The notes under the pieces were generated by a model. The model saw only the letters and a program-made list of their open reading frames with translations. It did no database searches and was not told the DNA's origin. A program made the position numbers and the translations under genes. This document shows positions 9,001-54,663 of a stretch of DNA of 64,000 bases, in pieces. The stretch's first letter is position 1; every line of letters starts with the position of its first letter. Source of the DNA: Heterotrichella gracilis. Its lineage: Eukaryota; Sar; Xanthophyceae; Tribonematales; Xanthonemataceae. The DNA lies in contig JAULBX010016637.1 in NCBI GenBank assembly GCA_032358255.1, forward strand, positions 62,001 through 126,000. Direction: 5' to 3'.

Positions 9001-12000
9001 CCCAGGGAGTCCTTGTAGTGGGCCAGCTTGCGCAGCAGGTAGCTGTCGACCGCCAGGGCATGTGCACGGTCCTGGGCTACGACCAGCAGATCATGGAACT
9101 TGATTATCAGGTCCTCCTGCTCGTCGATGAGCTGTGGCGCCTGCGCCTGCTGGTGCGCTTGGTACACAGCCGTCACGTCGCGCATGAGGAACAGCCAGTC
9201 GGTGAGGGCGTGTAGCACATCCACGTTCGACGAGGTGGCATGCAACGGCTTCTGGTCCTGCAAGTGTGGGCAGGGGTGCAGTGCTTCAGGTCCAACAGCT
9301 GCTCCCAGCCTCCTGGTCTCCAGGGCAGCGGCAGACAAACACACGTGCTGAGGAAAGGGCAATGGCGCTGGTTTATGGTATCGGCCCCGCCCCTGCTGGG
9401 CCAGTGACAAGCAGGCAATTGCACCCACTGGGGATGAAATGCTGTAGCTGCCGTCAGCCAAGGTGGTGCCCCTTGGCACAAAAGCCAAAGGGTCCATTAG
9501 CAAATCCCAGAAAACAGGCCGGCTCCCCTAGCTGCACGAAGTGGCAGCCAGCTGAGAACAATGTAGACACAAAGTCTAACCTGACTCTTACGAAACGAGT
9601 GGCCCCCACACCCTGCTATCTTGCACACATGAAGTTGGTCAACAATGTCGCTACATTGGCAACTGTCCTCGTGAAGATACCTTGCAGCTTGGGGAGGTCT
9701 GCAATCTATTTCAACAAGCAAGCGCTTTGACATGCAGTTGACATCCCTAGATGCCCCGGCCAGCATAGCCTCAGCTATATCCCCCTTGTGCGACAGCACA
9801 CGGTGGACATGCAGCCAGGGCATGTGCGGAATATTGCGGGTGCTGATATTCCACCGCTCATTACATTTGTGTTATAAATGTTCTTTTAGATTTTATTTGA
9901 TACATCATTTACATGAACAATACATCAAATAATAAAACTGAAGTAAAATTATTTATAAAAAAACTAATATTCATGCATGCCCCCACAGCCTGGCGCACCT
10001 TGAGGAAGTCGTTGATGGGCAAAGAAGCCTTGGGGGGAGTGGGCTGGCCAATAGTTGGCGGTGGGTCCTGCATCAACTTCATCTGGCGACTCACATCATG
10101 GTAGTAGGCATTGGTTGGGCCAGCCACAAGGCCCTCCTCCTCGTGTGGCTGGTACATTACCGTGGGCATCAACTGCAGTGGCCAGCACCAAGAAAGGTGA
10201 GGTGGGTATTAACTGCAGTGGCCAGCGCCAATGAGCGTGGCTTGTCAAAAGGTGGGGAGCACTGACACCAGGTTTTGGGGTGACTGCGAGGCTGCAAGCA
10301 CCTCCCGCTGCGCGCTGGCCGGCGCAAGCGAGGGGGCAAAGAGGACCAACGGACGGCAGTCAACGCACAAACCCTAAACCCTACACCCTACACCCTGATT
10401 CAGGCAGGGTGCAGCAGCAGCAGTTGCATAATATCCTGATCCAGGCACATGTGCTGCCGCGCGCACCATGGCGATGTTGCCGGCAAACAGCCCCAGCCTC
10501 TCGGACATGATGGGCCAGCACAGGCCCACCATGAAGGCCAGGAAGCGCAGCAGGTGGGCGAGGTGCTTCAGCGGGAGGGTGACCAGGAGGTCCAGCAGCA
10601 GGTCTGCAGGGACAATCCCCTCGCCGTCCACGTCCTCCAGGCCGCACGCCGTGCGGGTGTAGATCCAGATGGTCTTGGTCAGCATCTGTGGGAAGCAGCC
10701 CCCGCCCTGGAGCATGCACATGGCGGTGCACACCTCCTCCACCACCAGGGCTTTCACCTGCGCCGCCAAGGGGGGTTGTGGTAGCAAACGCAGGAGGCGC
10801 ACGAATCAGGGTTTGCTGGTAAACAGGAGGGTGCTCGTGGGGTGCAAGACAGTGGGGTGAGGGTTGCAGCTGTGGGGAAGGGCAGGACGTCCTAACCTTG
10901 GGGTTTAGGGTTTGAGGTTCAGGGTTTAAGGCACAAGTGAGCATGCGCAGCCATGCATGGCAATGCAGTGCCCCGATGTGTACGAGCTCCAGATATTTGC
11001 CTGTGTCAACAAATTGTGTGGCGTGGTGGCCTGGATGGCCAGCTGCTGACTTTGCACCCATTGCCCAAAGACACCAAGCGTCCGCATTGCTGTGCAGCTG
11101 TGGCCTTTACAGTCCCCAATGCACAGACGCGTTGGCGCAAATGCACCACACGCACGCAGCACATGCATGCTCCCGAGACTTTGCCGGCCCTACACCACAA
11201 ACCCCACACCTTGCACATGGCCAGGGCGCCACCCCCCTGCAGGTCCCGGAGTCCAAACCCTACGCCCCGTACCCTACACCCCACACCTTGCGCATGCTAG
11301 AGCGCCACCCCTCTGTAGCTCCAGGAGCCCAAACCCTAAACCCTAATCCCTAATCCCCGCACCTTGCGCACGGCCAGGGCGCCACCCCTCTGTAGCTCCC
11401 GGAGCCCAAACCCTAAACCCTAATCCCCGCACCTTGCGCATGGCGAGGCCGCCATCCCCCTGCAGCTCCCCGCGCACCATCCCCACAGCCTTGGCGGCTA
11501 CAGCAGCCAGCAGCGGGCCCGCATCCTTATTGGACACGTGCTCATACATCATGAGGTCAACCAGGCGGTGCACCAAGGTATCCAGACCTGTGCCCTCAGC
11601 CTCCACGATGTCAAGTAGGACCTCCAGCATGTCGGCCTGGGCAGTGCACGGGGTGGGGGTTGAGGGGGGGTGCAACCAGGACCTGCAGCAAGTAGGCCTG
11701 GGCAGTTCACGGAGAGGGGTTGCAACCACAGGCAGCAGGAGGAACCCACTATCCAACCAAAGCCCTATTATTATGTCAACAAATAGCATGCTGCGCTCAG
11801 GTTCCTAAGTGAACAAGGGTGCATGTGAAGCGGAACCCTAAATGTAAATCCAACACCCCAAAACCCTAAACAGTGCAGCTGGCGGCTGTGGCCCATGTAG
11901 TTACAAGCTGTTTTGACAGGCAAGCTCACGGGGTACACCGCCCATCAAGTCGAATGCTCAACACTAACTATGTATGTGCCCCCTTCAAACAGAATTCAAG

Positions 12001-15000
12001 GACCAAAATGCTCATGCTTGGTGGCCAACACAAGGTGGGCTGTACGCAAGCGTGATAGCAAGGTACATGCTGTGAGTAAATGCAAACCATGCTGCGCTCC
12101 ATTGCCCTCAACAAAACACTATCAACCCTAAACCCTAAACCCTAATCCCATGATGCACGCTGTGCATGAGCATGTGCATGTGCATGCGCATGCCATCTCC
12201 ACCACGCACCGACGCATTCAGGAGCTTCTCGTCATCCATCTGCAACACAAGGTTGGCATATGCTGCCTGCAGGTGCTGCGGGACCTCCTCGTTGGGGGGC
12301 CGTGCGGTCAGCATTAAGGCTCGGTAGAGTGCGATCAGTGCCCGGCCACGCACCACTTGGGCCTTCTCAAACTTCGAGCGCTGCATGAGGCACACAAGGG
12401 GTGGGAAGAAGCGCACGGGGGCCGATTGCACTGGTTACTTGCAGGCCTGGAGACAATGCAGGTGGGAAGCTCCCTCGTTCTACTTATTTCACCTCCTTGA
12501 TGTTTGGTTCAGGCATCCTTGATGTTTAGTTCAGGCATTGCATGTGGTTATTTGCAAAAGCCGATCTTGCAAAATGCATTACGATTCTTTTGCACCCCAT
12601 AATGGGTTCATGGTTATAGCAAAGAGTATTGTTCAGATATAGGCCAAGAGACACGCCAGAGGCTGGAGTGTGGGATCCAGCTCAAACTTATAAACGCGCG
12701 AGTTGCGGTTAGCACTGTAATTGGTGCTAAGCATACATGGGATTTCCATATCAAGCACCTGATTGTCCTCTTCAGGCTGGAGAGTGGGATCCAGCTCATA
12801 CGTATGGGCGCTGGCTAGCTGACTGAAATACTCCTCGTTGACCCCCACTTCTATCAAGTCGGTTTCAAGGTCGAGCATGCAGCTGGCATAGCCTGCAGGG
12901 GAACCAAGCTCTGAGTATTGTCATTGTAAAGATACAGCTGGAGGGAAGACTGCAAACCATCCAAAAAGGAGCAGGTGGCAAAATAGATGTTACCACCAGC
13001 CTGCAGCGACAGCGCCCTTACATAACACCTGAGTGCACTGGCAGGGTGGTGGTGTCGCTACAGTCAGGTTGACCATTACCCTACTGCTGTGGTCGTTTCA
13101 ACCAAGCTAATGTCTCCCAAATATCCGTACCTGAAAGTATGCCCATTGTAAAGGATTGCAGACAGTCCAAGTCCTGCATGCCGCCACACACACACACACA
13201 CGTTCAGAGGTTCAAAGAACACAGGCTTGCATCCCTGAGATTGCTGTATTTAAAACAGCAACGCCTGTGCCATGATGCAATGGATAGTACACCATGCCAG
13301 TACCTGATTATTGGAAGTGAATTCAAACGCTGAGCGGCCGTAGACCTTAATAAAGTTCCTGCACATTCAGACAGGTAACCATTGGGGTGTGCAGAGTGAC
13401 ATGGGTTGGGGTGACAGTTGAGTAACACCCTGTCCGGTGTGGGTGCAAGGTTATGGCACACGTACCCAGTTACTGGCAAAAAGTCCCCTTTTGCCACGCT
13501 GCGCATCAGTTCAAGATACTCATCCGCACTCTCCTCGCCTGTAGATCATGCGATTAGGTGTCATTCTGAGATCAACAGCGCCAACACCTAGCAATGCCTT
13601 TCACACACAGCAACTAGTATTGCAAGATTTCTCGGCATTTTGCAGTCTATCAAAGACTAGAGCCGTGCAACTCAGGACCACTGTTGCCCATGGCCAATGG
13701 TATGGCAGCTTCTTACAACACAGCAGAGGAACATATGCAATATCCAGCTCTGCACCTTGTTGGTGCATCATTTTCTCTATCTCCTGTGCTTGCAATGGCT
13801 GGGAAAAGTTGAAGTGCCCCGATACCTCCACTTGGCATGCTTGCTGCAGAACAGGGCACATTTTGAAACACCCAGCCCAACAAAAGCACAGTACGCCAAA
13901 GTACAGTTGCAAGCACCCAACTACATACCAAGATGTCAAAGTCCTTGAGGTAGGGAGGTTGCTCCTCCCCTGGCCCAGACAAGCGAACTCCGCCGTCCTG
14001 CAACAACAGCAGAACATCAAGGGTGCCTTGCAGTCCAGTCGTCACAACCAAGTTGTACATGGCAGGTGACGGTGGGTTACCTCCAACCCCAGGCACGCAG
14101 GATCCAGGCGCGTGTCAAGCAAGTGCTTCCTGTAGGCCTCCACGTCACTGGTGCGGAAATCTGATTCATGGTCCGCATACAGGTCTCCGAAAGAATCCAG
14201 GCTCTTGAAAGACTCCACCAGGGCGCTCAATGGCTTCTCCTGCGCAGGGTGTTTGTGCTCGGCTTCCACTGCCAGCAGATCGCAAGCAAACTCAACAGAC
14301 AAGCACAGGAGCTGCAGTAACCAGGCAGTACCTCGTCCTCCCAAAAGTACTGGTCGGCTGGCAGGGCATCAAGTGCCGCTTTTGCTCTTGGCAGGGACAC
14401 GAAAACGTCTTGCACTAGGCCTTGCACCTATGACACACACCCAGTGAAGCATGAACACCCAGCAACCAGACGTTTTTACACCACAGGATAAGTATTCAGC
14501 AAGAAAAGTCACCTGCTCCGGAGTCTGCTGTCTCACGGCGTCTCTCACCTGCAGCATACAGGGAAGTGGGCATCGGGACAGCCGGTATACAGCATACAAC
14601 ACCCAACAGCTGACCACAGAAACACTCACCGCTTGGGCATACTCCATTTTGCGCAGCAACCTTTTCAACCTCTTCTGCAGCTCCTTCTCGAGCTCCTCCT
14701 TGCTTTTATTCTCCTTCGGCTCCTGCACCAAAGCTGCCGGGTCAAACAGAGCCAAACGCGCTAGACACCTAGGGATGGGCTATGGGCAGCAGTGTGCAAG
14801 ACAGCGCACCTCTGCCTTCAAGGCCTTGTGCAGATCCCGCCTCTCCATGTGCTCTATTTGCAGAGCAAGCTGTTTCTGTACGTCCTCGCGCTGCTCCTTG
14901 TGCAGCTTGTCGAGCTTTTTCTGGTACCCTTCTGCTGCCACCTTGGACAGCAGGCCAATAGGCTTCAAGGTTGCCATGTTCCTCAGGACCAGCAAGCAGA

Positions 15001-15729
15001 AGCTGCTTGGGTCTTCGTCAAAATACCTCGTCTTCTTGTCGTTCCTGAAGAGCTTGGCCTGAACTTGCAGGGAGACACAGCACGCCATGGCCCGCGCAAA
15101 GTGGGTGTCGCCTGCGGCTTTCAGCTCATACTCCGGCTGGTGCTTGGCCTCAGAGCTGCTGCTGACAATATCCAGCTGTGGGTCGTTCCACTCCATTGGT
15201 GACCTGGCACCCCATCGCTCCCAACGGTCCGGGTCTGCCTCAAAGTCCTTGAAGCCGCCCAAACAGCGGGACAAGCTGGCGTGGAAGACAGCGCACAGGA
15301 CAGAGTTGTGCACCTCAGCCCCTTCCAGGGAGTACGCCAGAGCATTCCTGCACTGCTGCCGTGCTTCATTCTGATACTGTGGGGACTCGAGGCGCAGTTT
15401 GAGGACAGCTTTGTTGAGTGTTTCCAGTGCCTTGAGCAGCTCTAGCCTGCTCCTGACATGGAGGGTGAAGCCGCTGGGAACGGCCTTGCTGAGTTTTTCC
15501 AGAATTGACTTATCACTCCCCTGTCAAAGAACAATAACCAAACGGTCAGTGCTGTTCATGGTGCTAGCAGTGCAAACTAGCTAGCTGGTTTGTGTGTGCG
15601 GAGAAGGGCTACCTTCTTGAACTGAGCAAGCACCGCTCGAACGCTCTGCTCAACATCGTCCTCTCCAGCTGCACTAGCCGCAGACTTTGAATCTGAGGGT
15701 CTGGACTGTTTTCTGTTTCGGCTGGTCAT
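1..15729 (-). CDS. Plant-type ubiquitin C-terminal hydrolase-like protein, tandem copy B (3' end off the left edge)
   Basis: Multi-exon gene starting at the ATG at 15,729-15,727 (MTSRNRKQSR), conserved with copy A. Clear exons: 15,613-15,729; 14,810-15,520; 14,630-14,722; a charged coiled-coil exon 5,285-5,529; the USP Cys-box exon 955-1,148 (GLQNETGEYNCFLNVIIQ); and 51-347, the exon after it. About twenty smaller exons lie between 4 and 14.5 kb, each with a counterpart in copy A. Established: this Cys box, with EYNC in place of the canonical GNTC, is typical of plant ubiquitin hydrolase-related proteins (UCH domain behind DUF627/DUF629). I could not recognise DUF627 or DUF629 in the N-terminal part. 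The zinc-ribbon and His-box exons lie beyond the edge, so completeness is unknown. Predicted role: deubiquitination or ubiquitin binding; substrate unknown. I saw no clear frame break in the exons I followed. Confidence 0.8.
51..347 (-). other. Copy B exon following the Cys box (last visible exon)
   Basis: 297 nt, same length and phases as copy A's 18,873-19,169. It encodes the helical USP segment with EADPVVEALVELFKDF and GEMNDALEVLMAVFDQ, which plant UCH-related proteins carry between the Cys box and the zinc ribbon. It ends in AG/GTGCGG in phase 2, so the gene must continue to the left of the window. Confidence 0.85.
955..1148 (-). other. Copy B exon with USP catalytic-cysteine box
   Basis: This exon encodes GLQNETGEYNCFLNVIIQ followed by CLWHC, then a GTGGGT donor in phase 2. 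It has the same length (194 nt) and phase as copy A's 19,656-19,849. The Cys of EYNC aligns with the catalytic Cys of ubiquitin-specific proteases. Upstream in the exon is a proline-rich linker (FPPLRAPPPATTR). Confidence 0.85.
5285..5529 (-). other. Copy B lysine/glutamate-rich coiled-coil exon
   Basis: Encodes a highly charged stretch beginning with EVKKKKSDKKKNKVKDE and ending with an ERRRRELEAEAEERARE run, a predicted long single helix or coiled coil. Copy A's version (24,001-24,233) is 12 nt shorter and otherwise almost identical. Basic/acidic helices of this kind precede the protease domain in plant relatives. Confidence 0.75.
7990..8063 (+). repeat. Dispersed repeat, copy 1 (SINE-like candidate)
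   Basis: Shares TGGTAtAAgcAgTGcCA, a GC-rich middle and a TTGACTGCTAATCTG end with copies at 54,971-55,044 and 62,874-62,943. All three are in introns or spacers and in the same orientation. Length is about 70-75 bp. Confidence 0.6.
8390..8520. repeat. Imperfect tandem repeat with GGCAGTAGCACAGTA core
   Basis: Four or five diverged units sharing GCAGGCAGTA and AGCACAGTA in a copy B intron. Confidence 0.7.
11207..11475. repeat. Four tandem copies of an exon 3' edge separated by telomere-like tracts
   Basis: Copies begin at about 11,207, 11,284, 11,360 and 11,430 (periods 77, 76 and 70 bp). The last is the true exon edge of copy B: minus-strand GCCATGCGCAAG, then a GTGCGG donor at 11,433. The other three are in the intron and keep AAG/GT at the same place. 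Between copies lie CCCTAAACCCTAATCCC-type tracts. Confidence 0.85.
12125..12148. repeat. Interstitial telomere-type repeat
   Basis: Three CCCTAAA units in a row in a copy B intron. Similar short tracts occur near 7,815, 8,155, 10,370, 10,900, 11,840, 22,675, 24,340-24,385, 48,600 and 49,375. Confidence 0.9.
13185..13200. repeat. (CA)8 microsatellite
   Basis: A run of CA dinucleotides in a copy B intron. Confidence 0.95.
14810..15729 (-). other. Copy B first two exons (N-terminal region)
   Basis: Exon 1 (117 nt) and exon 2 (711 nt) encode the N-terminus. Exon 2 contains LHVRSRLELLKALETLNKA, then FHASLSRCLGGFKDFEADPD and the phrase WNDPQLDIVSS, and ends in a charged helix (DKLHKEQREDVQKQLALQIE). 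Copy A has the same two exons (117 and 687 nt) with high similarity. I do not recognise a named domain here. Confidence 0.75.
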
Positions 15730-17201
15730 TGTGGTGGCTGAACGGTGGGGTTACCCACATATGCATGCATACGCTTCAACTCGTCCGGCCAGAAGAAAAA
15801 CGCGCAGTACGCATCAAGTTGAGGTCGTTGCTAAGCAAAAATACTGCACTGGTGTCGGAAACCACACGGCACCGGCGCGGCCTGTCAAGTACGACTAAAA
15901 CAAGGGTTAACGTTTGCTGGGCGTGCATGCAGGGCGCTAAGGGAAGGTTGCGATAAGCACGAGTATTGACTAGCAAAGTATCGACTTGCCAACTCCCTAA
16001 TATCTATTGCTCAGCACCTGCACATGCATAGACAATGCAGGGAACATATATGTAACCCGCTGACAGGCAGCCTACCAAGTATGCACCAGCCCTGAGTCAG
16101 GGTCCGCAGAGGCCCACCGAAAGTGCAGGCTGTTTACATAAGACGACAGTGCTAGTGCCTTCAACGTACGTCATAGTCCGCCGATGATAGTGTACTTTGA
16201 GATATGCACGGAGGACAAGACGGCACGGGCTGCCTGTCACCTGTGTTTGCCCTGTAGCTGGAGGGGTTTTGCTGCCGTGTCCACGGGGTTTTCAGACACA
16301 TGCCGTGGAGGCACACAATCGCCTACATACCCCGCTCACAGTGCCCCTCAAAGCACCCTTTCACCTATATTACTAAACCACCAGCCCTTCATCACGCCGA
16401 GCTATCTGCGCTCAGGAGCAGCGAGGGCTTGGTCTGCCCAGGAAATTCCTGCGAAGCAGGTGCAATGTATGTGCGTGCATACATGTTGCGCAAGGCCTAG
16501 CAGTAGGTTCTGCGGCTCTGGTTGGATCGCAGGTGGCTGCTTGGGTTACAGACTAGTTGTACCCATTGAAGAGGGCTACATACCACGACGATTTGCTCAT
16601 AACACTACTGTACCAGGTCTCCCAATCACCACGCAGCGGCAACATGCCTGCCAGTCCTGTAAATCAAAGTACAAGAACTGTTGTAACCCAGACGACCTCT
16701 GGGTAGCTATTTATACTGTGCTTTTCAAGCGGTACTATACTATACTTTACTCTCTACACATGCGATATCAGTTGTCCTTGCTGGCCATGAATTCTACAGC
16801 TTGTAGTTCAACTGCACCACTCTATTCACTCAAAACTATACGCTCCCTAACATGCCTGCCACGCACAGTGCAGGCATTGCTACCAATCTGGAAATCTGCT
16901 CACAGTGCGACAAAGGAAGATACAAGCCAATTATAACCAAAGCTGACTGTAATGCACACCGCCTTTCAAATGCTCTTGCTTTCCACTCCTTCCAGGGTAC
17001 TACTGCCAGCGATACCCTGGCTGTGACCCCCTTGAAACTCTCCCCAAAACGCCAATGGCTGTTCCTGCTGGCCCCCGCGCGCCTCGCCGGACCAGATGCA
17101 AAGCTTGCAAAACCACCACCACCAAAGCGCCCCCCTTGCACCTTTTCGCCCATACTGCTAAAAATCGTGCACCGCCAAGCTCCTTGAAGATCCCCGCCAA
17201 G
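15730..17201. other. Intergenic spacer between the tandem copies
   Basis: About 1.47 kb between the start codon of copy B and the stop codon of copy A. It should hold copy A's 3'UTR and copy B's promoter and 5'UTR. I see no convincing coding exon, RNA gene or tandem repeat in it. The stretch just upstream of the ATG resembles the matching stretch in front of copy A (a shared atgcatgcatacgc motif near 15,770 and 33,660), so duplication included some upstream DNA. Confidence 0.6.
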
Positions 17202-18578: not shown

Positions 18579-21500
18579 CTGCGGGCACACAGGCAGCGGC
18601 TGAGGAGGGCAACAAGCAATCCAGGCAATATAAATGCTAGCTGTTGACCAGGCACTTCCAACCTTGGGTTTTGCACATGCAGTATCAGTGGTACCACCCA
18701 TACTCTACCACCAAGTCACCACATGCAAGACGCAGATGCAACCCCACCGAGCTTATTCCACACAATGCATGAATTGATATATATGACCCACCATCTCAGA
18801 GCATCCATGCCCCACCACCAGCCACCCTGCACTGGCACACCCCGCCCAGCCACACCCTACCACCCTGCGCACCTCCTCGTCTTCTTGGCCACCGCCTCAA
18901 TCTGGTCAAACACCGCCATCAGCACCTCAAGCGCGTCGTTCATCTCACCCACGTTGAAGCGGTACCCAGACTCCTCAGCCAGCGCCTCGCGCAGGGCGGT
19001 GGGCGAGATGACGTTGCGCTTGCGGGTCTCCTCCACACCGCTGCGCCCCGCCTCTGCACTGGCGTCTGACACCTGGCGGAAGTCCTTGAACAACTCCACC
19101 AGGGCTTCCACCACAGGGTCGGCCTGATACACTTCAGGGGCCAAGGCCAGTAGCTCGGTGCGGAACTCGCTGCAGGTGGCAAGCACAGACAGTAAGCACA
19201 TGACCCAATCCATGCATGCACACCGTTGAGGGACCTCCACCACAGATTACACCCTTCACTGTGATCACTGGCTGTACACATGACCATGGATGGGCTTGGC
19301 TCATGGTCCACTGCCGTATGATATGCGCATGTTCATCGACCGTATGCGTTCCACCTACAGCATCCGCATGCACCATGGCCAGCCGCCCCGTGCAAACTTG
19401 ATGCAGGTGCTTAATGCATACTGTGAAGTTTGCTCAGCAAACCAGTGTATTGCATTGTTAGGAGTGTGGCATGTGGTGGGCGTGCCGTCATGGCCAGAAC
19501 TGCAGGCATGGATGGATAGGGCTTTCTTTCTAGTGATAGGAGGTGTACATTCATATACCCATGGTATATGAAGCCTGCCAAACAGCTGGAGAGCTGGATG
19601 GCACAACTAGTGCAAAAGTGCCAGCATATCTGGCTGTCCAGCCCCGAGCACCCACCTGCAGTGCCACAGGCACTGAATGATGACGTTGAGGAAGCAGTTG
19701 TACTCGCCAGTCTCGTTCTGCAGGCCAGCTGCTGACAGGTCCCGGGGGATGTGCACCTCGCGGGTGGCGGCAGGGGGGGGTCCGCTCAAGGGGGGAAAGT
19801 CCCCGGTTGAGGGCTCAGCCAAGCTGTAGCTTTTGGAATACAGGCTGGCCTGTGAAATGGGAAGAAAGCATGGGTTAGCACACGGCTGACATCTTCCTTG
19901 CCATTGAGGTTTTATGACAGCACTCTGTGGCGGGAAACGTGCCTGGAAGGGCCCTGTTCCGTCCCAGAGCTTGCTGAGGACGGCCTCATTTTGCGGCCCC
20001 AATGCGTGTGCTCTGGAGATTGAATGTACTCCAACATTTCAGGATTATAAGGAAACAGGCCTGACTAAGCGGAAACAAAGCTTGATGTATTGCATCCCAG
20101 CATGCATGCCCTGACAGGGGTCCTGGCAGGGGCAGGAACAATACGCCCACCAGCTGCAACCTGCAGTCATTCCAGTCTCCCAAATGCATGCCCAGCATGC
20201 AACAAATGTGCGAATAATACACTAATAGCAATTATGTGGCCAAAAAATGACTAATTACCACGAACTGCCCGACTGGAGGGGGAATCATGTAACCAACGTG
20301 ATTCCTGCCATTCTGCCATTTGCCACTGTGGCAACAACTGCCATTTTCCGTCATGGCGGCAATCCCTGCTCCAAATATAACCACCGCGCTGCCGCCGATT
20401 GCCTCACCTTGATGGCCGCCACCAGGTCCTCATCCTCCCCGGAATCATGCGCGACAGTCGCCCAGCTGGGCTTGCCTGGCGCCATGGGGGCCAGCGCCGG
20501 CATGCCGCTGGTGCCCTTGGGGAGCAGCGCCTGCAACAGCTCCTCGCCCATGCCACTGGAGGGGGTAGAGGGGCGGTCCACCGACACCGCGCGGGTGGGC
20601 TGCGGGATGCCGGTGAGTGACGCCAGGGTGGCGCTGAAGACGTCCTCGTCAGAGCCATCTGTGCACAAGGGGCCATTCTTACAGAAAACCTAGAGGCAAG
20701 GATGTTGCATGGAAACAAACAGCCCATGGTCTGTCAGAACTGCGGCGAGCTTTTCATCACCACCCTGTTCTTTTGTTATCAGACAGCCAGAGTCCAGAGG
20801 TTGGCAGCAATGGGCCCTGTGCAGGGCACTTAGTGAGCATGCGCAGTGTCCTCATGCTGCCCATCTATGCATAAAGCTTTGCACTTGGTACACATACTAC
20901 CTGTGGGAAGTGCCCATTGCCAGTGGGCAACAACCCCATATGTGTTGCCTGTCCCGAGAGCATGCACACAAGAGTACACAAGGTGAGGTGGCATCGCAGG
21001 CAGAGCGTATGTGCAGAGCTTTATGAAGGGGGTTAGCATCGCAGGCAGGGCCGCCGCACCTTCAGAGGCAGGAGCCAGTACCACGGGCTGTGGTATGGGC
21101 ATTGCTGGCCACTGCGCCTGTTGGAAGCCTGGCAGGCCGGGGGCCAGGCCGGGCATGGGCCCACCAAAGCCTGCGCTTGTAACCTGCTGCGCGTGCCGGC
21201 CCCTGGGCGATGACACATCCACCACAGGCACAGGGCGTGGACCTGCACCACAAGCACCACATAAACACAGCACCACACTGACTTTACAGTCCATTCTGTG
21301 TTGGGGTCTGACAGTGTGAAGCCCATCATGCCACCAGGCACTGAAACTTAGCGATACAGCAATCATATTATCTGTCAGTGAGCAGGCAAGAACTACATTA
21401 ATTCCATTTCATTTCCGGTTACTCCTGCATCTGTCAATGCATGTATTGCAGAGCAGGGCGGTGCCTTAACTTCCTCCCTCATCCCCAACTAGTGGGACAG

Positions 21501-24500
21501 GCTGGTTAAGACAGGCTGCATACATGTTAGCTGTGCTCCTGCTGTTTTGACTATCCAAAATCAAAATTTGTGATATTTTTCTGTAGTTTACATACCTGCA
21601 GAGGAGGCATTGTGGACGCGCATGAAGCGCTCCTCCTCAGCTGACCGCGCGCCGGCAGGCGAGGCACGCTGGTGCTGCTGGGCACCCACACGGTTGGCCC
21701 ATGTGCCAGAGCTACCGCTGCCCGGGCGCGCGTGGGGTGACTGGGATCCCTGGTGAGAGCTGGCTGGCGCGGCGGATGCCGCAGCGGGCGCCTCACCCCA
21801 CCTGGGCCGCAGAAATAATTTGGCTGAGGCGCGGCGGTGGGGGCGCGGGGAGGCATATCCCCCATGTGCATGGTGATGAGGCAAATGCGACTGCATGATG
21901 CGCTGGCACAGCTGCATGTGCGCAGATGGAACAGCATACACGTGGCTGCATGTTGAGGCAAATGCCGTTGTGGGTGGCGCGGTGCAATTACATGTGCGTG
22001 GGGAGGTGCACGTACCCGCCCACCTCCGTCTCGTACTCCCTCACGCTTGGATGGCCAGCACCCCACTGATCCGCCCCACTGCCAGGCACAGCCGCAGGCC
22101 GTCGGTGCTGATGGCGCCTGCAAAAACCACCCCAGGTCTCATAAGCAGCATTCATGCCGTGGTTACCACTTGCTGGGTATTCATCCTCCCTACCCTTTGC
22201 CAGAACACTGTATCTGGTGTTATAAACAAGAGCTCGCCAATCGTGCCGCAAAGCACGCTTTCATCCTAACCATTGCAGCCATGTAGCTAACCATGTAGAC
22301 ATTGGACAATGACGGATTGCTGACAAGCACTGAGTCTTGTCGACACCACCGTGGCCACACGCCATGCACTCCTGTGTTTTACAAGTCGCTCCCAAGCGCC
22401 AGCCCCACAGTAACTGATTGTCAACAAAGTCCCGCAATGCGGTGCGGTGTGTACCTGTCTCTTAAGTGGCGATCCTCCCTCTGCCGCCAGTCAGCGCTGC
22501 GATCTGAGGGCTGTGCGTCATCATAGTGCCCCTCCTGGTCCCTGTGCCTGTGGCCATTGGCGCCTCGCTCACCCTCCGACTCCCGCGCCCTGCCACCCCT
22601 CTTCCTGCAAAATAAAGAAAAATTTTAATTCATCAGGAAAACATATTGATTATTCTAGTAGAAACCAGAAACCCTTAACCCTAAACACCATTGTGAACCT
22701 TAAATCCTACACCAGTGTGTGTCCGCACTTGCGTGGCTTCTGTGTCTCAAACCCGGGCAAGGCTGGCCCCCCAGACACAGATGGGGAGTCCATCTGGCGC
22801 GCCACAGCCTCAGCATGCCAGCTGTCTGCTTCCAGGGAGGTCGATGGAGTGGGGGCGCTGGCTGCATCCTCGCCAAAGCCTGAAGAGAATCCAGGGTCCA
22901 GCACCTCAGCCACTTCCTGCTGCATCCATCACAAAATCATTGTCATTATCCATCATTCTCATCAATTATACTATAATTCCTCCTTGCTGCAATGGGGACC
23001 CAAGCCTGTTGCACTGACCGTCACCATCATCATCACCACCACATCCATTTGCTGTACCCCAGGATTATGAGGTGCATCCAATGGTCATGAATTTGCAGGA
23101 AGTGCATCAGAAGTGCACCACACAGGTTCAGAAGTGATGTGGTGCGCAAGTTGATACATCAGCGCAATGCCGGGCCATGCCACTCCATATCATATTACAG
23201 CAGAGGGTGTGGCTGATGGGGCATGGCTTCATGGCCACCACATTCCTGTCCCATGGCAGTTGTGCCTCACCTCATCCCCCATATACTGCTCCAACATCTT
23301 CAGGCGGCTGGCCTCCCGCTCCTGCTCCTGCTGAAGCTGCAATAAGCACACAGGCAGATAAATTACTTTCCATACAGATGGCATGCATCAGTTCGCTTGC
23401 ACAGAAGCTGTGCTTTAAGGGGAGGCATGGGCAGAAGAAGGGCACTGGCCTCCTACCCACTATGCGCCCCCCATCATGGACCATGCACACACCGCATAAA
23501 GCTTAAGATGCAGCCACACGGTTGCTTGCTGAAGCTCGACCAAACACACCCGCACCACTCCCTGAGGTTCACTGACACCCCCAACTCTAGCGGAGGGTCC
23601 ACACCGCCCAGTGGCCAAGGTGACCTGTTTGAGGTTTAGGGTTTAGGGTTGACCACACACCCCAGTGGCCACATTGACCACCCACAGCCCTCATAGTGGG
23701 CCCCCCAGGCCCACACAGGTCAAGCCACAGGCAGGAAGCAATGCAATCCAATGGGGTGCCAGCTAATGCGCTCGTTAATCAACACTACCCCTCCATCCCA
23801 ACCCATCTCCAGCTGCCCTGTACTCCCTCCCCCACATTGCCAACCATTTTCCCCACCACATGTATCGCGGGTTGCGCTATAAATGTAGCACTTCAGGAAA
23901 CTCCACTACAAGGGCAGCATGGAGAATAATGCAAGGTGTGACGTCTCAGGCCTGGCCTCACCCCTCACCAGTTCCACCACCTCCAGCCTAGACCCCCCAC
24001 CTTCCTGGCCTCCTCCTCCTCCTGTGCCCGCTCCTCCGCCTCCAGCTCTCGCCTGCGCCGCTCCTCAGACTCCTCCGCCCTGCGCTTGTCCTCGGCCTTC
24101 TTGCGCTCATCCTTCACCTTGTTCTTCTTCTTGTCACTCTTCTTCTTCTTGACATCAGGACCAGATGCCGCGCCACTGGCAGCCTTTTCCAGCCCGCTCA
24201 GCAGGGAAGCTTGGGCGGCCTTAGCGGCCTCCTCTGCACATACAGGGGTAGGGCTCAGGGTATTGAAGGTGCAGGCTTTAAGCTGTGGCAGGCTGGGCGG
24301 CCTCTACAGTAAATGCAGATTTAGGTGCTTGATTATGCATGGTTTATAGTTTTAGGGCTTGATTATGCTAGGGTTTAGGAATGCTAGGGTTTAGGATGCG
24401 ACGGCATACCCTTGCGAGATTCTGAACAAGGGCAGTGCATGCTCTGAATGCGCACGAAACGTTCCACTGTAGAGAAAGCCCAACATGGCATTGCTGTATC

Positions 24501-27500
24501 CCCTCTTCTATGTACCAACTTGATCAAACATATGCCACCTGCATTCACATCCTCCCTTGGCTTCCCTGCGGCGGTCAGGCCATGCCCAGCCCTTCCCAGG
24601 CCACCACCAACATGTACTTTCAGGGGTGTACTGATCTACTAGCAGCAAGTACACCAGCGCACCCCTACCCATAGTGTACCTCTGCCACTAGGACCACGCA
24701 AGTGATACATGGGGTTTTCACTTGCACTGTCCCCAACATATAGCCATGGGGTCTGCGCCACAGCAAAGGCATACAAGCATGAGCTGCCTCCCATGCACAC
24801 ATGCATATGCATGTGCACCAAGGCAGTCTTTTTAGGCTTTAGGGTTTAGGTTTTACCCTAAACCCTAAACCCTAAACCCCGAATATGCATGTGCACCAAG
24901 GCAGTCATAGCCATGCACACATGGCTGGCGAGCGCAAGTGCTGCGCTGGTGGCGATCACCACAGCTGCTGCATTGTCCGCACCCTTGAGATCCTTCCACG
25001 TCTTGTGTAGCACGCCCTTGACAGCCAGCTCCCATATGGTCAAGGTGTCTGTCTTGGGGACCTTGCTCAGCCTCGTGGCTTTCCTGCGCACCAGGAGAGT
25101 GCACGGTGAGACCATTCAGATGCTTGGGATTGCTTGGTTGCCAGCGGGGATTGCTTGGTTGCTAGTGGGGCCCAAAAGGTGATCAACAGCCCGACTGGTG
25201 CATCCGCCCAACAATAGAACACCAGCGGTGCTACATGCTGATGCTGGTGCTAATGCTCATGCCAATGCTGATGCTGATATTGATGCTGAATGCTAAATGC
25301 TGATGCTTTGCCAATGGCAATGACAATGCCACACGCAGCAGAGTGCGGCTATGGCTTGCGCGGTGTGCCCTCCAAATCACTGCTTGCAGCGAGTACAAGG
25401 GCAACAGTAGAAAGGTGACAGATCCAAGGGGATTATAATGAAAGAACATTACTGGCTCTTGGGCTGGGGTGAGGCATGCCCATGCATGCTTATCTGGCTT
25501 CAAAGCTGGATATGCAGATACTTCCCAAGAGCCTTCCTGACAGAACCCAGGTTTGATCAGGCATGACTTGGTGGCAGAGACTTGCAGTGGCACAGCTGGT
25601 TTCCGTCCAATGTGTGGTGACTAGGTATTGCGTCCGCACCTGAGCATTGACTCCACGGCTATGCTTGCACCTATCCTCCTCGTCTTAATGGTGCTGAAAG
25701 TGTCACGGAAAGCCATGCTCAGCCCTTCACAAACATGCATTAAATGCTTCGCAAACGCATGGAAAGTGTTCAAGGTCTGCACTCCGACATTGCTGCAAGG
25801 GACACACGCACAACGTCAACATGTTTAAATGTTTTATTATGGCATTTCCTGTAATTCCTGCATGCTTGGGCCTTGTCAGGTGAAAATGGGCAGCCTTGGA
25901 AGTGCAGTAAGCGGCACGACTGCTTGGCCACCACCTGCCACACTGGAAACACTGTAATACAAGCCTTGGCTCTTGCCCCTGGGGTGAGGTTTACCCAAGC
26001 ATGCTCATCTGGCTTCAAAGCTGGAAAGCAGTCACTAATCGTAATTGGGGCAAAGTACACAGTTACACGCCTAGCACAATAGCGGTGTATGAGTAGTGAT
26101 AAAAAAAACAACGAATACCATCGTACATACCGCAGAAGGACAGCAGAATTCAACCTGAGCTGGCCTTCAACCAATTTCCTGATGGCTGCAAATGCCTCCC
26201 TGGAATCGCAGGCAGGCCCCAGGGTGTGACGCACTGCAGCACAGAATTTATCACAGTGAGGCGTGCAGCTGCACAACACACAAGGGGCCATAGCTGCGAG
26301 ACTGACATATATGTTCCCGGCAGAAAATGGGACCATCTGCACTGTTCCCAAACAGTACATACAGTACCTTTAAACACCAGCACGTACATACAGCACAGTT
26401 TGGGCACAGTCACAGCACATACTGTAATGAATATAACACAATGGTAATTCCATTATGGACAGCAAACCCTTTCTGCTACATTACAGGTGGTTTCAGAGGA
26501 CTTCCTTCGATTATGGATAGCTCCTCCTTTTGCTGCTTTCCATGTAGTCACAGCACAATTGCACCTACAGCACTGTGTATTATGCATCCCAAAACCAGCA
26601 CGCACGCTCAATCAGGGGCATTGCTGGAGGATCATGCAGCATCTGGTAGAGATCCTGATTCAGCACATGTAGACTTCTGCGGCATTCCTTCGCCTCCGCT
26701 TGACACTGCAGGGTACAAAACTGTTTTGAACCCACGGCATGCACGCCGCCATTGCCGTTGCATGAAACACAGCTGCAATGCAGGGCAGCGATACAATACA
26801 TGAAAATCAGCACATGTCCAACCCACCGATTTCCACTCCTTGTCCATGTCAAGATAATAGTCAAAACTTCTACCCCTCTTCATGAACTCCACCCTGTCAT
26901 CCCGCAGCCTGCACCATTCCACATATTCAACGAAGTTTGTTGGGATCCAAATCCCAATCCCAACCCAACGGTCAAACACACACCAAACAGGAAAACAGGG
27001 TACATGTAGGTGCTGCAAAGCAAACCAAAACAACCACCCAGCGAATATTACAAACCGGTCCATCAAGACCGCATTGCCCTCTGCCTGCAGCTGCTTCTGG
27101 ACAGTAACGGAAATACCGTCCAAAATGCGAGTGGTCTCAATAGTCTGTGCCAAGGCCTGTATGCACACTGTAGCACCAGCAGGGTTTTCAGTCACAAGGA
27201 GTTGGCGCATCCCAGCCCTGGTAGCCAGAGCTACATTGCTGGCCATGCACCACCCCATGTCAAAAGCCAATGGGCTACTGGTTGCTTCCAGCAATGTCAC
27301 GCAAAGCCACAGCTGCACATATGTACATGGGCATTCCTGGAGCGTCTGCAGCACAATCCGACTATTTCACAGCTAGTGCATGCAAGCACAGGCATAATTT
27401 TGCGCTGGAAATGTCCCGGACCTTGCTGGCGTGCGTATATTTCCTCCAAGCACTTGAACCACGACAACAGCGGCTCCCCTGATCTCTGCAAGACACCCAA

Positions 27501-30500
27501 TCCAATGATCAGCCCTCGCAGCCAGCGCAGCATTGTATGAATTCCATTATACAGGAAAGAAAACTTGAAACTGTCCTTATTCCTTCGAAAATGAAGAATA
27601 TTATCATATTTGAATATGACATATGAAAATACAAACTACATTCATTTTATACTAATTACTGGCTTTTACTATTGTGGTTCAAATAACTTTTTGTTACACA
27701 AAAGGGTATTACACAGGAGGGTGACATGAGCCCAACCTGAGCACCCAGTAAGTGAAACTCCACCAAGGGTAATAAGATAATATAAGGACCTATTATTATC
27801 TTATCACCCTTGCCTCCACTGCCTGGCAACCACCAAGATGCATGCACACAGTCAGTGACCTCCACTGCCTGGCCGCCACCAATATGCATACACACCGCAA
27901 CCCACCTGCGCATCCTCGACTGCGTATAAGCTTTCCTTGAAGTCATCGAAAATACCCGGCAACGAACCCCCGTGATGGATCAGCCTGTCCTGCAGATAGC
28001 AGCAGATAGCCAAGACATACGCGCGATCCTGTGCCATATCCATCAGCTCGTCAATCTGGTCTGAGGCACGTTTCTCCCGCTCTGAATCATCGGCCACTGA
28101 GACATGCGGCCGCTCGTGGCCATGGTAGACGGAATCCACGTCCCGCATGACAAACAGCCAGTCAGTGAGGGTCTCCAGGATCTCCACTGACGGGGCGTCG
28201 CAATCCAGAAGCTTCTGATCCTGCACATGCAGGGAGGCGTGGAGCGCCTCAGGTCTATGGGGTGGCAGCATCCAACCCCCAGCCCGTGTACAGGCGGGGG
28301 ATGTGGGGTGGGGGGGTGGGACAAACACAGCCCCCCAAAAACGCACAACATTGAGTTTGTGTTCTGGAACGAATTTGTACCCCCCCCTCTGTTGTGTTAC
28401 CATTCCTGCAAACGCATCTGGCATACTCCATGCCATGTGTACACGTATGGCACAAGCCTGATGTGGACACCCCCACCCACACTCTACCACTACCCTCCAT
28501 ATACGCCCGCACACGGGCACCATTGTAATGGTAATCAAATGGAGTATTGGACAAGTCCATAGTGATTAATACGTGGACATCGTTTGAGATGGCATGGGTT
28601 TTCCAGGAGATTTAATGCCTAATCCCAAGCTCCAGCTTCCATTCAAATGTAGACCTATCAACCCACAAACTATCCGTGCCTCCATAACGTTTGTGACCCC
28701 ATGGGATTGGGCTGAATGGATGGGACGCGAATTGAAGCCCTCAAGTGCAGCCAGTGAAAACCCTTGATGAGAGCTGATTGAGCCAGATAACGATTAAGAA
28801 CCTTACATGCTTTTCTAGCAAATGCGCCACCCATTACTGTTCATCTATGGGAGGGAATGCAGGAGGTGGCGCATCCACTCCGCGTTTTCCATGGGTGCTG
28901 ATTAATCCATTTGATGATTCTCTCGCTTACCTTGAGAAAATCCTGCAGCACCTTGGGCATCCCTTTAGCCCCTTCGCTATCCTTGACCTGATCTTGGAGC
29001 TGCTTAATCCTGCGGTTGATGTCCTCTAGGCCGTCCTCTGTTAGACTGAGCTCCTCCTCGGCCACCGCCGAAGGCATGGGCTGCTGCAGCAACGACAGAC
29101 AAGAGTGGCTTGTCAAAGGGTCAGATGCACCAACACCAGGTGTGACATGAACAAGTGGTTGACAACAGCAAATCCTGAAACGCAGGGGAGGGGGGAAGGG
29201 AGGAGGCAACAGAAGATGACGCAAACAACAGAAGCATGTTCATGTCCCATGATGCAGTTGCAAAGTACCAGAGGATATGTTGTGCCTGGTGATGCAATCC
29301 CAAGATCATGGTACTACTACACGCATGTGCCCCCCTGTACGCACCGGGTTGAAGGGCACGAGGAAATCCGGTAGGGAGTCTGCCAAGATGGGCCAGAAGA
29401 TGCCAAGCTGGAAGGTGAGGAAGCGCAGCAGGTGGACTAGCTGTTCGAGCGGAAGTTCTACCAGCACCCCCATCAGCATCGCTATCGAGAACACCTTGTC
29501 ATTGCCTTGGTCGTGACCCTCCATGATTGAATCGCCGCAGAGGCGGTACACGTGCTCCATGATGGCCTTGGTGTGTGCAGCATAAAAGCAGCCCCCTTGC
29601 TGAAGCATGCTCATGGCTGTGAAGATCTCCTCCACCACCATAGCCCTCACCTGGGGCATCAAGGGGATGGTCAGGAGATGCATGTAAATAGCAGACGGTT
29701 ATGATTCCTTCCAAACGACCAACGTGTATGCTGGCCTGGGTGGGCTAGGCACTGGCTTCCTGTTCATACATATCTGAAACCAATGTGGCAGTGCAATTGA
29801 TGCACAGTGCACGGTACACACCACCACCTCACTGGCACAGCAGCAAACGCCCATCCAGCAAGCATGCGCTTGCTCCTCCCGCTTTCTTGAAAACTTTAAA
29901 CCCTCACCTTGCGATTGACTACTGCTTCATTCTCCTGCAGCTTCCCGCGCAGAACCCCCACAGCTCTGGTGGCAACAGCAGCTAGCAGCGGCCCCATGCT
30001 CTTACTGGCCACGTGCTCAAACATCATGAGGTCAACCAGGCGGTGCACCATGTCATCCACCCCACAATCGTCATCCTCTATGTGCTTGACAAGGGGCTCC
30101 AGCAGGCACCCAACCTGGCCAGTGCGTGGACAGAGGGTTGAACACAGCAGCAAGCAGACTCTCATACCACTGCAAATCCCATCACTACCTAGCGACGCAC
30201 ACAGGCTGCTACCCTCTTGAACAGGTTATGAGAACAAAGGGTGTGTGTAGCAGGTGTGACTACACAATGCACAGGAGGCAAGATGCACGCTGGGCATGTA
30301 AGTCAGTACCTGCAATCCAGTTTTGGGAACCAGGTCAGCATGCCTTCATATGTCACGCCTCAGTCCATGCGCAAGGCTTTTCTGACATCTAGCTGTGCAT
30401 ATGCAAGCTGTGATGGTTACATACCGCTATAGGAAGGACTTTCTCATCCTTTGCTTGCACCAGCTTGGCATACACTTCCAGCAGCAGATGTGCGTCTGAA

Positions 30501-51056: not shown

Positions 51057-52304
51057 GTGGGTGGGTGGGGAGCATTCAACCTGGGCGAGAGGGTCTGTCG
51101 GGAAGCGCTGGGAGGCGGGGAGGGGACGTCTGTGGGGGTCACTGAGACCAGTATTCTTTTCTGATGTGCAATGAGAGGCTGCAATTTCTGCTCAGGAGTT
51201 TTCCAATGCGTTGACTGCTTTCGAGTGTCCTAGAGAGGTCCAAATTCCACTGAATGCAACCCTGAATTCAGCTTGTGAGTGCGAAGCCACCAACCGTTGA
51301 TGGTGTCCCCCATGGTGTTGGCCGCCATGGTGGTAGCACTCCTTCAAAAGCAATATTTTGTAGCAAAATCTAATTTGTAAGGCAGTAGTGCAAGTCTTAC
51401 ACCGAGAGTTGCTCTGGCACAAGTAGCATTCAATTCAACAAGTTGTCAAAATTGAGCAGGGATCAATAACCAGATGTACCGTGGGGACCTGCTCACAAGG
51501 CCCTGCGCAGTAAGCGCAGAAAACCGTAATTCCTAAACAATCGTATCTCACAACAGGCGATCAGTAGCCTAACTCGACGCAGCTTGCATGCCAATTCAAA
51601 CTCTGCAACGTTTATTAGGGCCTCGCAAGTCTTAGACTTTGCAGGCGTTTTCACATCATGGGAGTCCAAACAATTTGTCATACACTCTATGCGTATGGGT
51701 GACAAAGCTGACACTTGGCAAAGCAAAGCAAAGCAGGCTCACATCAGGGCACAAAGTAGTAAGCGAACAAAATAAACAAGATGCAAATATACATTTAATT
51801 TGGCTATTCTAACGGTAGTTTCGAGAAAACTTTGAAATGCTGTGTATTATGACACATCAATGGGATATTCCAAGAAAATGACCTTTCAACTGCCAGTGTA
51901 GTACTCCAACAGCGCCCGATCAAAATTTGAAGGCCCTGCCACTGACAGAGAGTGCCATCTACCCAGTAAATGTAGACCAGACCTATTAGACGTCTCTAGC
52001 GTCAATACATTTTACAAAACTGCTTTCTACATATCACACTTACACACCTAATGTCTAGGAGAAGCTCTGAGTCAAGTAGTGGCACTGAGTCTCACAGCAT
52101 AACTTCATCTCCAGTGTCGGCAGTACAACATCAGTCCTTTCGTGACTGCTTGCCGCAAGGTGGGGGCCATGTCCAAGCACCTCTGCTTCTGGCCTGCACT
52201 GTTGAAAGCTGATCATCGACTGGAGCTGCGTCACCTGACCGGGTTGGCCACCCTAAACTCTAAACCCTAACCCCCAAAAACCCTAAATCCAAGCTGGAGC
52301 CGCA
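51057..52304. other. Convergent intergenic region, carrier / receptor kinase
   Basis: About 1.25 kb holding two 3'UTRs. At 52,251-52,288 is a CCCTAAA-type tract flanked by two 35-bp direct copies of the sequence around the kinase stop codon. I see no other gene-like content. Confidence 0.55.
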
Positions 52305-52328
52305 TCACCGAACCAGGTTTGCCACCCT
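52220..52328. repeat. Telomere-motif tract between 35-bp direct repeats at the kinase stop codon
   Basis: CCCTAAA-type units at about 52,251-52,288 are bracketed by two 35-bp copies, 52,220-52,254 and 52,294-52,328, differing at six positions. The right copy contains the real stop codon (52,305-52,307) and last coding bases. Confidence 0.85.
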
Positions 52329-54663
52329 CTCTGCATTGAGCAGCGTGATGACCGCCACCATGGTGGGGCGCTGCGCCGCCTCCACGCGCGTGCACTGCTC
52401 AATCAGCTGGGCAACCTCCACAGGGCACTCCTCCGGCACCCTGCAACAGCACAGAGCAGGTGGGTCTGCTGTTAGCATATGCGCCGCGCACCGTGATTAA
52501 TGTCTTTTCACTGCATGTATTTAATACCAAAAATAATACTTTAAAAAAATAAGTTTTTGCGTTATTGCATTAAGCCAGGGTCCAAATTTGGCCCATCAGA
52601 CGTAGTAATTTACTGGTACAATCATGTAGTGGGCTAATGGCATGCGCAAGGCCTGCCTGTCAGGGGGACTAAAATAGTCCTAGTTCTAGTCCCCCTGTGC
52701 CTGTTGCCTGTTTCCTCCCTCTTCACCTGACCTCCCTCCTGCCCCCCCTGGTGGGCGTCTCCCCCGTCACAATCTCCCACACCAGCACGCCATAGCTGTA
52801 CACGTCAGCGGCTGTGGTCACGGCGGTGCCTGCAGGGCACAGTTTTAGGGTTCAGGGCTTAGGGTTTAGGGTTCAGGATGCTGGATTCGATGATGCCGTG
52901 CCGAATAGTGTGATGGCGGGATGCCTGCATAAACAGTGTAGGGTTTAGGGTTCAGGATGCTGGATTTGGCAAAGGGCAATGGTCATGGTGGTGCCTAAGG
53001 AACACCTTAGGGTTTAGGGTTTGGGATTATGGATGGATTATGGATGGATTATGGATGGATTATGTGTAGGGGCAGTGGTCATGGCGGCAGCCTGTGTGAG
53101 AGGATGGGGCGGGTTCCTGAGCGTTTGTGATACAAGCAGAACAAGAACGCAAAGAAACAGGTAGCATGCTTGTGCAAACGGCCTTGCTTTTACTCAAGCC
53201 GTGTGCCAGCGTGTGCCATGTCATTGTGGCCAGTACTAATTGCATCTGATGTGGCATGGCTATGCATCAGGCAGACCATCAGGCTGCAACTAGGGCAAGT
53301 CTTCACAAATTAATCAAGTACAGGCCACTAGCCAGTCCTACCCCATGCCAGGAATGATTTGCATACAAAAGGTGAATATAGCCATGCACAAATGGACACG
53401 ATATCAATCAAGGGAAAAGATTGCGCACACAATTGGCCACCCACCCATCATTATCTCTGGAGCCATCATGCAAAGGTCCCCTTCCCGTGCAGATCCGTGT
53501 GGGTGGCACTCAGCAGGTGCGCCAGACCCACATCTGCCACCTTGGCCACTCCACCGCTTGCCAGTAGCACATTGCTGCTCTTGATGTCCAGGTGGACGAT
53601 GTTATTTGCATGAAGGTAGTGGAGCCCCTGCGCCACGTGGTACGCCACATACCTGCCCCTGCACCACCACAAGAGAGTGTGGTGCCAAGGTTCAAACCTA
53701 GATTTGGGGCATACTTGGAGGGCATAACTGTAACCAAACACAAAAACAATGCATGTAAATTTTGAGCCCACAAAGGAAATCACAAGGATCATACCTATTA
53801 ACAAATCAATCCGCAAATTAAACAATATATATACTGAAAAAGAAATAAACCAAATGAACAAAAAGACATTAATGAGAGTGAAAAAAGCAACTTCATAAAA
53901 TCCAATCTGATGTGCAAAAATCAAAGGGTGTTGAAAATGACCACACAGGACAATGGCATCATGCATCGAGTCCCCTTATTGCTGTTACCAGGTGACCCGC
54001 TTCAGCTTGATCTGCGTGTAGAGGCTGCCCCCCGCCATGAGCTCAGTCACAATCATGCTCACGCGCTCACCCGCGTGGGCGCCCAGGAACTGCACGATGT
54101 AGGGCGAGCGGCAGGACTGCAGCACCTCGATCTCCTTCACATACTCCCGCTGCTGCTCGCCCTCCACGGGGGCCTTGTGCTCAATCACCTTGACAGCCAC
54201 GTCCATCACGCCTTTCCAACGCGCGCGGTACACCTGCGGGGGAGAAAGGTGCCATTAACAACAACAACATGGAGAGCATACGCTGCAGTGCTGTTCAAAG
54301 TCATGCTTGCACAGGCAAAACATGACACCAATATTGTACATATTTCCTTCATCCATGCGCCCAGGTTTGAGGGAACGGAATGAAAAAGGGCAGCCCTCCA
54401 GCCCACTGGTCCTCCACACACCTTCTACCAATACTGCCATGGATTGAAGTTCTTGCAGTTGAAGCAGTAGTTCATGTTTCCGCAGATCAGATACAGTAGT
54501 ATACCCATGCTTGTAAATAAACACCCACCCATGCTTATAAATAAACACCCACCTTGCCTACGGCTCCCTCCCCCAGCACATGCAGCTCCCCATCTGCCTT
54601 GCGCACAAACTGCAGGTCCTCCTCCCGGATGCTCCAGTCATAGTGGCGACCAAAAGAGGTGCC
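52305..54663 (-). other. Kinase domain exons
   Basis: Exons 54,553-54,663, 53,989-54,233, 53,445-53,658, 52,727-52,829 and 52,305-52,440. Invariant Lys (VAVK), Glu (KEIE), catalytic Asp and Asn (HLDIKSSN) and metal-binding Asp (ADVG) are present. HLD replaces HRD (a non-RD kinase) and DVG replaces DFG. The segment GKGTFA should continue WMAPE, but one base is missing. Residues after it read correctly again in the next frame, and the splice to 52,829 fits that second frame. Confidence 0.85.

Follow-up and report, generated by a model that had tools for sequence, protein, structure and literature searches.

Telomeric tracts in the window

The stretch of DNA examined here, referred to as the window, comprises 64,000 nucleotides of the microalga Heterotrichella gracilis (bases 62,001–126,000 of contig JAULBX010016637.1, numbered C167 among the 903 contigs of a 68.5 Mb genome). 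It contains short tracts of the telomere-type repeat TTTAGGG/CCCTAAA that lie between direct copies of the adjoining sequence, an arrangement denoted D-telomere-D, where D is the duplicated piece. The original prediction named six such places and considered five or six independent cases unlikely by chance. Flanks of 150 bp were compared with the tracts masked, and a direct repeat scoring ≥14 was taken as positive. The places at 11,207–11,476, 23,599–23,679, 24,805–24,906 and 52,220–52,323 passed this test. The best copy pair at 52,815–53,090, beside a kinase exon (52,726–52,851, match to PF07714 above cut-off), scored 12 over 15 bp with none at ≥14, so that this place, taken by itself, is weak. 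The tract at 24,328–24,385 has two mismatches per 14-mer and fell outside the tested set; a 12-bp copy is visible there by eye.

The departure from chance was confirmed, with 37 telomeric matches at up to two mismatches in the window compared with 0.27 expected. The 11,207–11,476 locus carries four copies of a 39–48-bp exon-edge unit and forms a tandem array with a 77-bp period. Because copy and tract repeat together within this period, a single event followed by amplification would be a simpler account of 11.2–11.5 kb than several insertions.

Telomere repeat and telomerase of the organism

Exact matches to TTTAGGGTTTAGGG numbered 5,629 across the genome (2,845 forward and 2,784 reverse), compared with 5 (2 + 3) for the same pattern read backwards. 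Exact four-unit matches, with chromosome ends counted in, occurred 101 and 108 times on the two strands. Among the 63 exact six-unit matches, 59 were located at 12 contig ends in telomere orientation: 31 of the CCCTAAA type within the first 273 bases of seven contigs, and 28 of the TTTAGGG type no more than about 300 bases from the opposite end of five other contigs. TTTAGGG is therefore the chromosome-end repeat of this organism, and the inserted arrays consist of its own telomere repeat, as befits interstitial telomeric sequences. The remaining four six-unit matches were single and internal; that on contig C120 was counted as internal because another match lies on the same contig at 86 kb. 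A profile match to the telomerase RNA-binding domain PF12009, above the curated cut-off, was found in two exon pieces on contig C626.

Enrichment of flank repeats

The window was pooled with loci L001–L050, which had been picked for tract content regardless of their flanks, giving 37 segments and 316,691 bp with a G+C content of 55%. The enrichment figures refer to this sample. Tracts of ≥14 bp with ≤1 mismatch numbered 154, and the reversed sequence used as a control yielded 4. Flanks of 80 bp were available for 150 tracts and flanks of 150 bp for 147.

A direct flank repeat at score ≥14 was detected at 54 of the 147 testable tracts, compared with 0.04% of shuffled left-right flank pairings (n = 2,770) and 7.6% of tract-free places in the same segments (n = 1,470), so that the expected enrichment over shuffled controls was obtained. 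After removal of low-complexity repeats the counts were 39/147 for tracts, 6/102 for microsatellites (18/102 before the filter) and 60/1,470 for random places; at a score of 16 the filtered counts were 31/147, 5/102 and 38/1,470, giving odds ratios of 5.2 against microsatellites (p = 0.0004) and 10.1 against random places (p = 5e-16). The converse test started from direct repeats with spacers of 12–80 bp and recovered a telomeric 9-mer in the spacer of 34/75, where 4.9% would be expected at random places within these segments; in the window alone the count was 1/5. A chance origin of the tracts and flank copies was rejected, both tract counts and flank-repeat excess being far above the controls. 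The D-telomere-D pattern is confirmed as genuine and extends beyond the window.

The 54 positives were reduced to 33 clean cases by setting aside five tandem-amplified clusters, the only mixed tract and any pair with a separation above 80 bp. Their copies are 14–143 bp long with a median of 38, as in short direct duplications of the CST-Pol alpha type; in the longest, the alignment extends over an adjacent tract. The copies lie 19–74 bp apart, and a median of 90% of the spacer aligns to the telomere repeat, the median number of non-telomeric bases at either end being one. Identity between copies ranges from 71 to 100% (56/56 in the two-copy case at C4:9978); it is therefore plausible that the events were spread over time, in line with the process having been predicted to be ongoing.

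Comparison with paralogous sites

Part of the window is an 18-kb tandem segmental duplication (1–15,774 against 18,815–33,670) in which matching blocks, 70–90% identical, are separated by diverged gaps. All 15 tracts found in the two duplication copies at ≤2 mismatches lie inside these gaps or ≤20 bp from them. The four unit copies of 11,207–11,476 correspond to one copy at the homologous position, 29,905–29,951, which is adjoined by a 14-base telomere-like stretch with two mismatches (29,891–29,904).

A second comparison was provided by contig C2, where six copies of a unit of about 40 bp are separated by five telomeric spacers (C2:264.5–264.9 kb) and an inverted paralogue at C2:302,850–303,290 holds a single copy. 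The left-hand flank of the paralogue finds its sole match in the sequence to the left of copy 1 (score 18; 4–5 for the remaining copies), and the right-hand flank is most similar to the sequence right of copy 6 (11 compared with 5–6; 6 of 1,000 shuffles of this side were as good). The paralogue has the ancestral form X-D-Y that the model expects. Read on the complementary strand, the unit looks like the first part of a coding exon preceded by a CTTGCTCCGCAG acceptor, which is a reading of the sequence and not a gene prediction. Both usable paralogues thus carry one copy where the filled loci hold four or six. The prediction that empty sites would hold one flank copy is supported at two loci, with paralogues standing in for strain alleles, and these would represent the empty sites expected of interstitial telomeric insertion, through paralogues and not orthologues.

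Searches at C3:136–141 kb and C2:290 kb found no usable paralogue, that at C4:9.7–14.3 kb found only fragments of other loci, and that at C2:314 kb was obscured by matches to a dispersed repeat. At 23.6 kb in the window the paralogous intron does not contain the region, and divergence of the paralogous intron was too great at 24.8 kb. A dispersed repeat of about 140 bp was seen at L021 about 2,049–2,187 (C2:315.2–315.4 kb), with at least 39 further matches at 75–83% identity among the 40 of 333 candidates that were scored. Two copies of a piece of C3:139 kb, about 80 bp apart, are present at C112:93,319–93,472 and are perhaps another such duplication.

Order of mixed tracts and phase of tract ends

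Extension of both 3′ ends of a break by telomerase would place TTTAGGG units first and CCCTAAA units second, here called inward order. With two exact units each way required within 30 bp, inward order was found 13 times at 12 sites genome-wide. The same strict pattern in outward order gave one match, which spans only the interval from one inward insert to the next in locus L051. Flank copies were identified at 4 of the 12 inward sites. A script detected a perfect 18-bp copy in L052 and, in L061, a diverged one that is weak (score 12); by eye, L057 shows a perfect copy some 49 bp long and L051 a short unit present three times. In L054 (C171:20,805–21,025) an inverted repeat of about 16 bp encloses, by eye, the first run of the inward tract, a pattern that an end folding back and copying itself might leave. 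Because of this arrangement some inward sites may be fold-back products.

The phase at which tracts end was examined with a conditional null that allows for the choice of loci, since earlier tests had ignored selection by the TTT...GGG pattern. The 3′ ends favour GGGTTT and avoid three of the seven phases, those after A, G1 and G2 (24/132 compared with 52.1 expected, p = 2.7e-7). The deviation was present in tracts with the selecting 14-mer (p = 0.04, n = 47) and in those without it (p = 1e-5, n = 85), and gave p = 0.06 in the window alone (n = 14). A preferred 3′ stop is compatible with templated synthesis, short of proof, and would point to a telomerase RNA template with its 5′ boundary placed so that products end near GGGTTT. 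The preferred stop differs from the Arabidopsis telomerase template, as quoted in one source as CTAAACCCT (PMC12133305).

Exon edges and splice sites

Exon edges occur among the duplicated pieces. The open frame at C2:388080 matches the fatty-acid desaturase profile PF00487 above cut-off, and the duplicated piece encodes its last residues, past the matched stretch; at C3:25453 a 23-residue piece matches the CAF1B/HIR1 propeller below cut-off. A strict donor motif was present in 8/33 copies compared with 3.0 expected (7/1,000 simulations), a loose donor motif in 13/33 compared with 7.5 (21/1,000), and CAGG in 21/33 compared with 15.1 (15/1,000). Splice-site motifs are therefore, by these counts, mildly enriched in the duplicated pieces. 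This enrichment may reflect the survival of events hidden by splicing and not targeting. Identification of exons by reading frames running through the joined sites, without homology, was too noisy. Exon edges do become duplicated, as had been claimed. An effect on introns is a well-motivated hypothesis.

The positions of the features in the window are given in Table 1. Two further repeats were noted: a 27-bp tandem repeat of 6.5 copies, together with longer-period versions, at 42,288–42,523, and a dispersed repeat of about 70 bp at 25,453–25,524 with at least 39 further genome matches at 86–89% identity among the 40 of 242 candidates that were scored. The program ARAGORN detected no tRNA in the window, and the dispersed repeat is not a tRNA.

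Table 1. Copies and telomeric tracts at the loci of the window.
Feature	Position	Strand	Evidence
Exon-edge unit copy, outermost, GCAAG^GTG donor-like	11207..11247	-	36/41 columns identical to copy next to exon
Exon-edge unit copy	11284..11322	-	33/40 columns identical
Telomeric tract between copies	11326..11357	-	Tract match
Exon-edge unit copy	11359..11400	-	36/42 columns identical
Telomeric tract between copies	11403..11428	-	Tract match
Exon-edge unit copy adjoining conserved block 11,426–11,584 (exon edge)	11429..11476	-	Alignment
Flank copy 1	23599..23625	+	22/27 columns identical
TTTAGGG tract	23632..23652	+	Tract match
Flank copy 2	23653..23679	+	Flank test
Flank copy 1, 24 bp	24805..24828	+	24/24 identical
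Inward mixed tract, TTTAGGG type then CCCTAAA type	24829..24882	.	Tract match
Flank copy 2, 24 bp	24883..24906	+	Flank test
Single unit copy in paralogous block (empty-site comparison)	29905..29951	-	37/49 columns; sole copy in 29,501–30,200
Flank copy 1	52220..52249	+	24/30 columns identical
CCCTAAA-type tract; core at one mismatch, extends to 52,292 at two	52250..52274	-	Tract match
Flank copy 2	52294..52323	+	Flank test
Three TTTAGGG-type tracts among degenerate copies near kinase exon edge (52,842–52,879; 52,935–52,958; 53,005–53,028)	52842..53028	+	

Origin of the inserts

Telomerase-assisted repair of breaks with fill-in is, in our judgement, the best explanation of the basic unit and a probable one. 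A chromosome break with overlapping ends would leave single-stranded ends of about 14–90 nt, most likely 3′ overhangs. At one 3′ end or both, telomerase would append a small number of TTTAGGG units. Fill-in of the opposite strand, with CST-Pol alpha the probable agent as it is at genuine telomeres, and joining of the ends would convert X-D-Y to X-D-telomere-D-Y. At some loci the unit of D and telomere would subsequently be amplified in tandem. Telomerase action and the CST-Pol alpha route of duplication described in the literature would both fit 3′ overhangs better than the fill-in of 5′ overhangs. The D-telomere-D structure with its excess, the single-copy paralogues, the inward mixed tracts and the TERT domain are features read in the genome itself, and from them we infer the action of telomerase at the sites, the polarity of the overhangs, the part played by CST and the joining of the ends.

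A number of results weigh against this explanation or restrict it. At the threshold used 93/147 tracts in the sample showed no flank duplication, and 41/75 spaced repeats had no telomeric 9-mer in the spacer, some of these spacers resembling decayed repeats by eye. No clear flank copy was found at 8 of the 12 inward sites. A lenient count of neighbouring tracts within 60 bp in the sample gave two inward and one outward, so that the inward rule rests on the strict pattern. The 5′ starts of the tracts also deviate in phase, less strongly than the 3′ ends: p = 0.04 for all 137 starts, 0.73 where the 14-mer is present and 0.008 where it is absent. Primer-like break ends were suggested by a first look at 46 cases, which was misleading because the way the cases were built makes the final bases at the junction resemble the tract; a bias-free test that skipped these bases was negative, the extended break end being no more telomere-like than the other end (p = 0.27 and 0.90), and break ends in register with the inserted repeat, the sign of microhomology, were not detected (p = 0.27). 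Divergence of the copies and divergence of the tracts were uncorrelated (rho 0.05), a test weakened by the selection of tracts for being near-perfect. As a sole cause the proposed repair would also be insufficient at the multi-copy loci, which need later amplification of the unit of D and tract because neighbouring spacers share non-telomeric bases.

The same D-telomere-D structure would be produced if a staggered break were filled in and joined around a ready-made telomeric scrap, or around a copy made from a telomere by template switching, with no telomerase at the break. Such capture needs no primer homology, in agreement with the negative primer test, and spacers of non-telomeric sequence exist too; yet it predicts no single fixed order for mixed tracts and does not predict the preferred 3′ end phases. 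Judged by the order of the mixed tracts, break ends were more likely extended than joined to captured fragments, and we regard capture as unlikely. The original prediction had allowed for telomeric DNA either added by telomerase or captured during repair of staggered breaks; the inward tracts speak for the former, and the latter is the less favoured part.

Growth of a minisatellite, in which a telomere-like stretch joins a tandem repeat expanding by slippage or unequal exchange so that copies and tract multiply jointly, is evident at the multi-copy loci, both in the 77-bp period of 11.2–11.5 kb and in the six copies with similar spacers at C2:264.5–264.9 kb, and the single-copy paralogue at 29.9 kb already adjoins a telomere-like stretch. 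It leaves unexplained the loci at which two copies enclose the only tract (24,805–24,906; C4:9978) and the inward mixed tracts, and microsatellites are far poorer in flank repeats. As the origin of the inserts it is disfavoured and rather improbable, while as a second step it is likely. Flanking direct copies at many dispersed loci could also come from a mobile or introner-like element that has a telomere-like body and makes target-site duplications, but the duplications and spacers vary over the ranges given above, and the spacer is mostly heptamer repeat. With neither a near-constant duplication length nor a conserved body, this candidate was rejected as very improbable.

Relation to known systems and implications

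Both halves of the proposed telomerase-assisted repair are known in mammals. The interstitial telomeric sequences of rodents and primates are described as short arrays inserted in one step at double-strand breaks, an activity for which telomerase was put forward (Nergadze et al., 2007, PMC2246262), and are the nearest relative of the inserts reported here. In that account, as here, short telomeric arrays in unrelated sequence are judged against empty sites. It reports flank duplication at a minority of loci (6/130 in rodents and 4/25 in primates) and microhomology at the break ends as a supporting, not a required, feature, whereas in H. gracilis at least about a quarter of the tracts have flank copies and no primer preference is seen. 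Small tandem duplications made by CST-guided Pol alpha-primase at complementary 3′ overhangs were described in mammalian cells (Schimmel et al., 2021, PMC8355091); the short break duplications and the model of fill-in with end joining are shared, but the telomeric insert between the copies is absent from the model as set out there. A report from 2016 describes intron gain in which a short duplication across an intron-exon boundary supplies the splice signals, with the new intron detected (PMC4974935); duplication of an exon edge is common to both, while in H. gracilis telomeric DNA separates the copies. In Chlamydomonas an interstitial telomeric band is stated to be missing from one strain, and chromosome fusion was suggested (PMC6549138). 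No report combining a telomeric insert with a flanking duplication was found in a search covering the openly licensed literature.

A wider reading, which we put forward tentatively and consider clearly less probable than the repair mechanism itself, is that telomerase takes part routinely in ordinary break repair in this lineage, so that repair of ends with 3′ overhangs would have left D-telomere-D scars in large number. Because D often holds an exon edge with its splice site, the D-telomere-D scars would multiply donors and acceptors, lengthen introns and perhaps make new ones. If this is true, the microalga would provide a natural record of telomerase at ordinary breaks, an activity described as probably rare in the mammalian work cited, and the length of the overhangs, the ends that were joined and the point at which the enzyme stopped could be read from the sequence. 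Such scars would also provide a route, and one that can be dated, for the duplication of exon edges together with splice sites, with a bearing on the growth and origin of introns.

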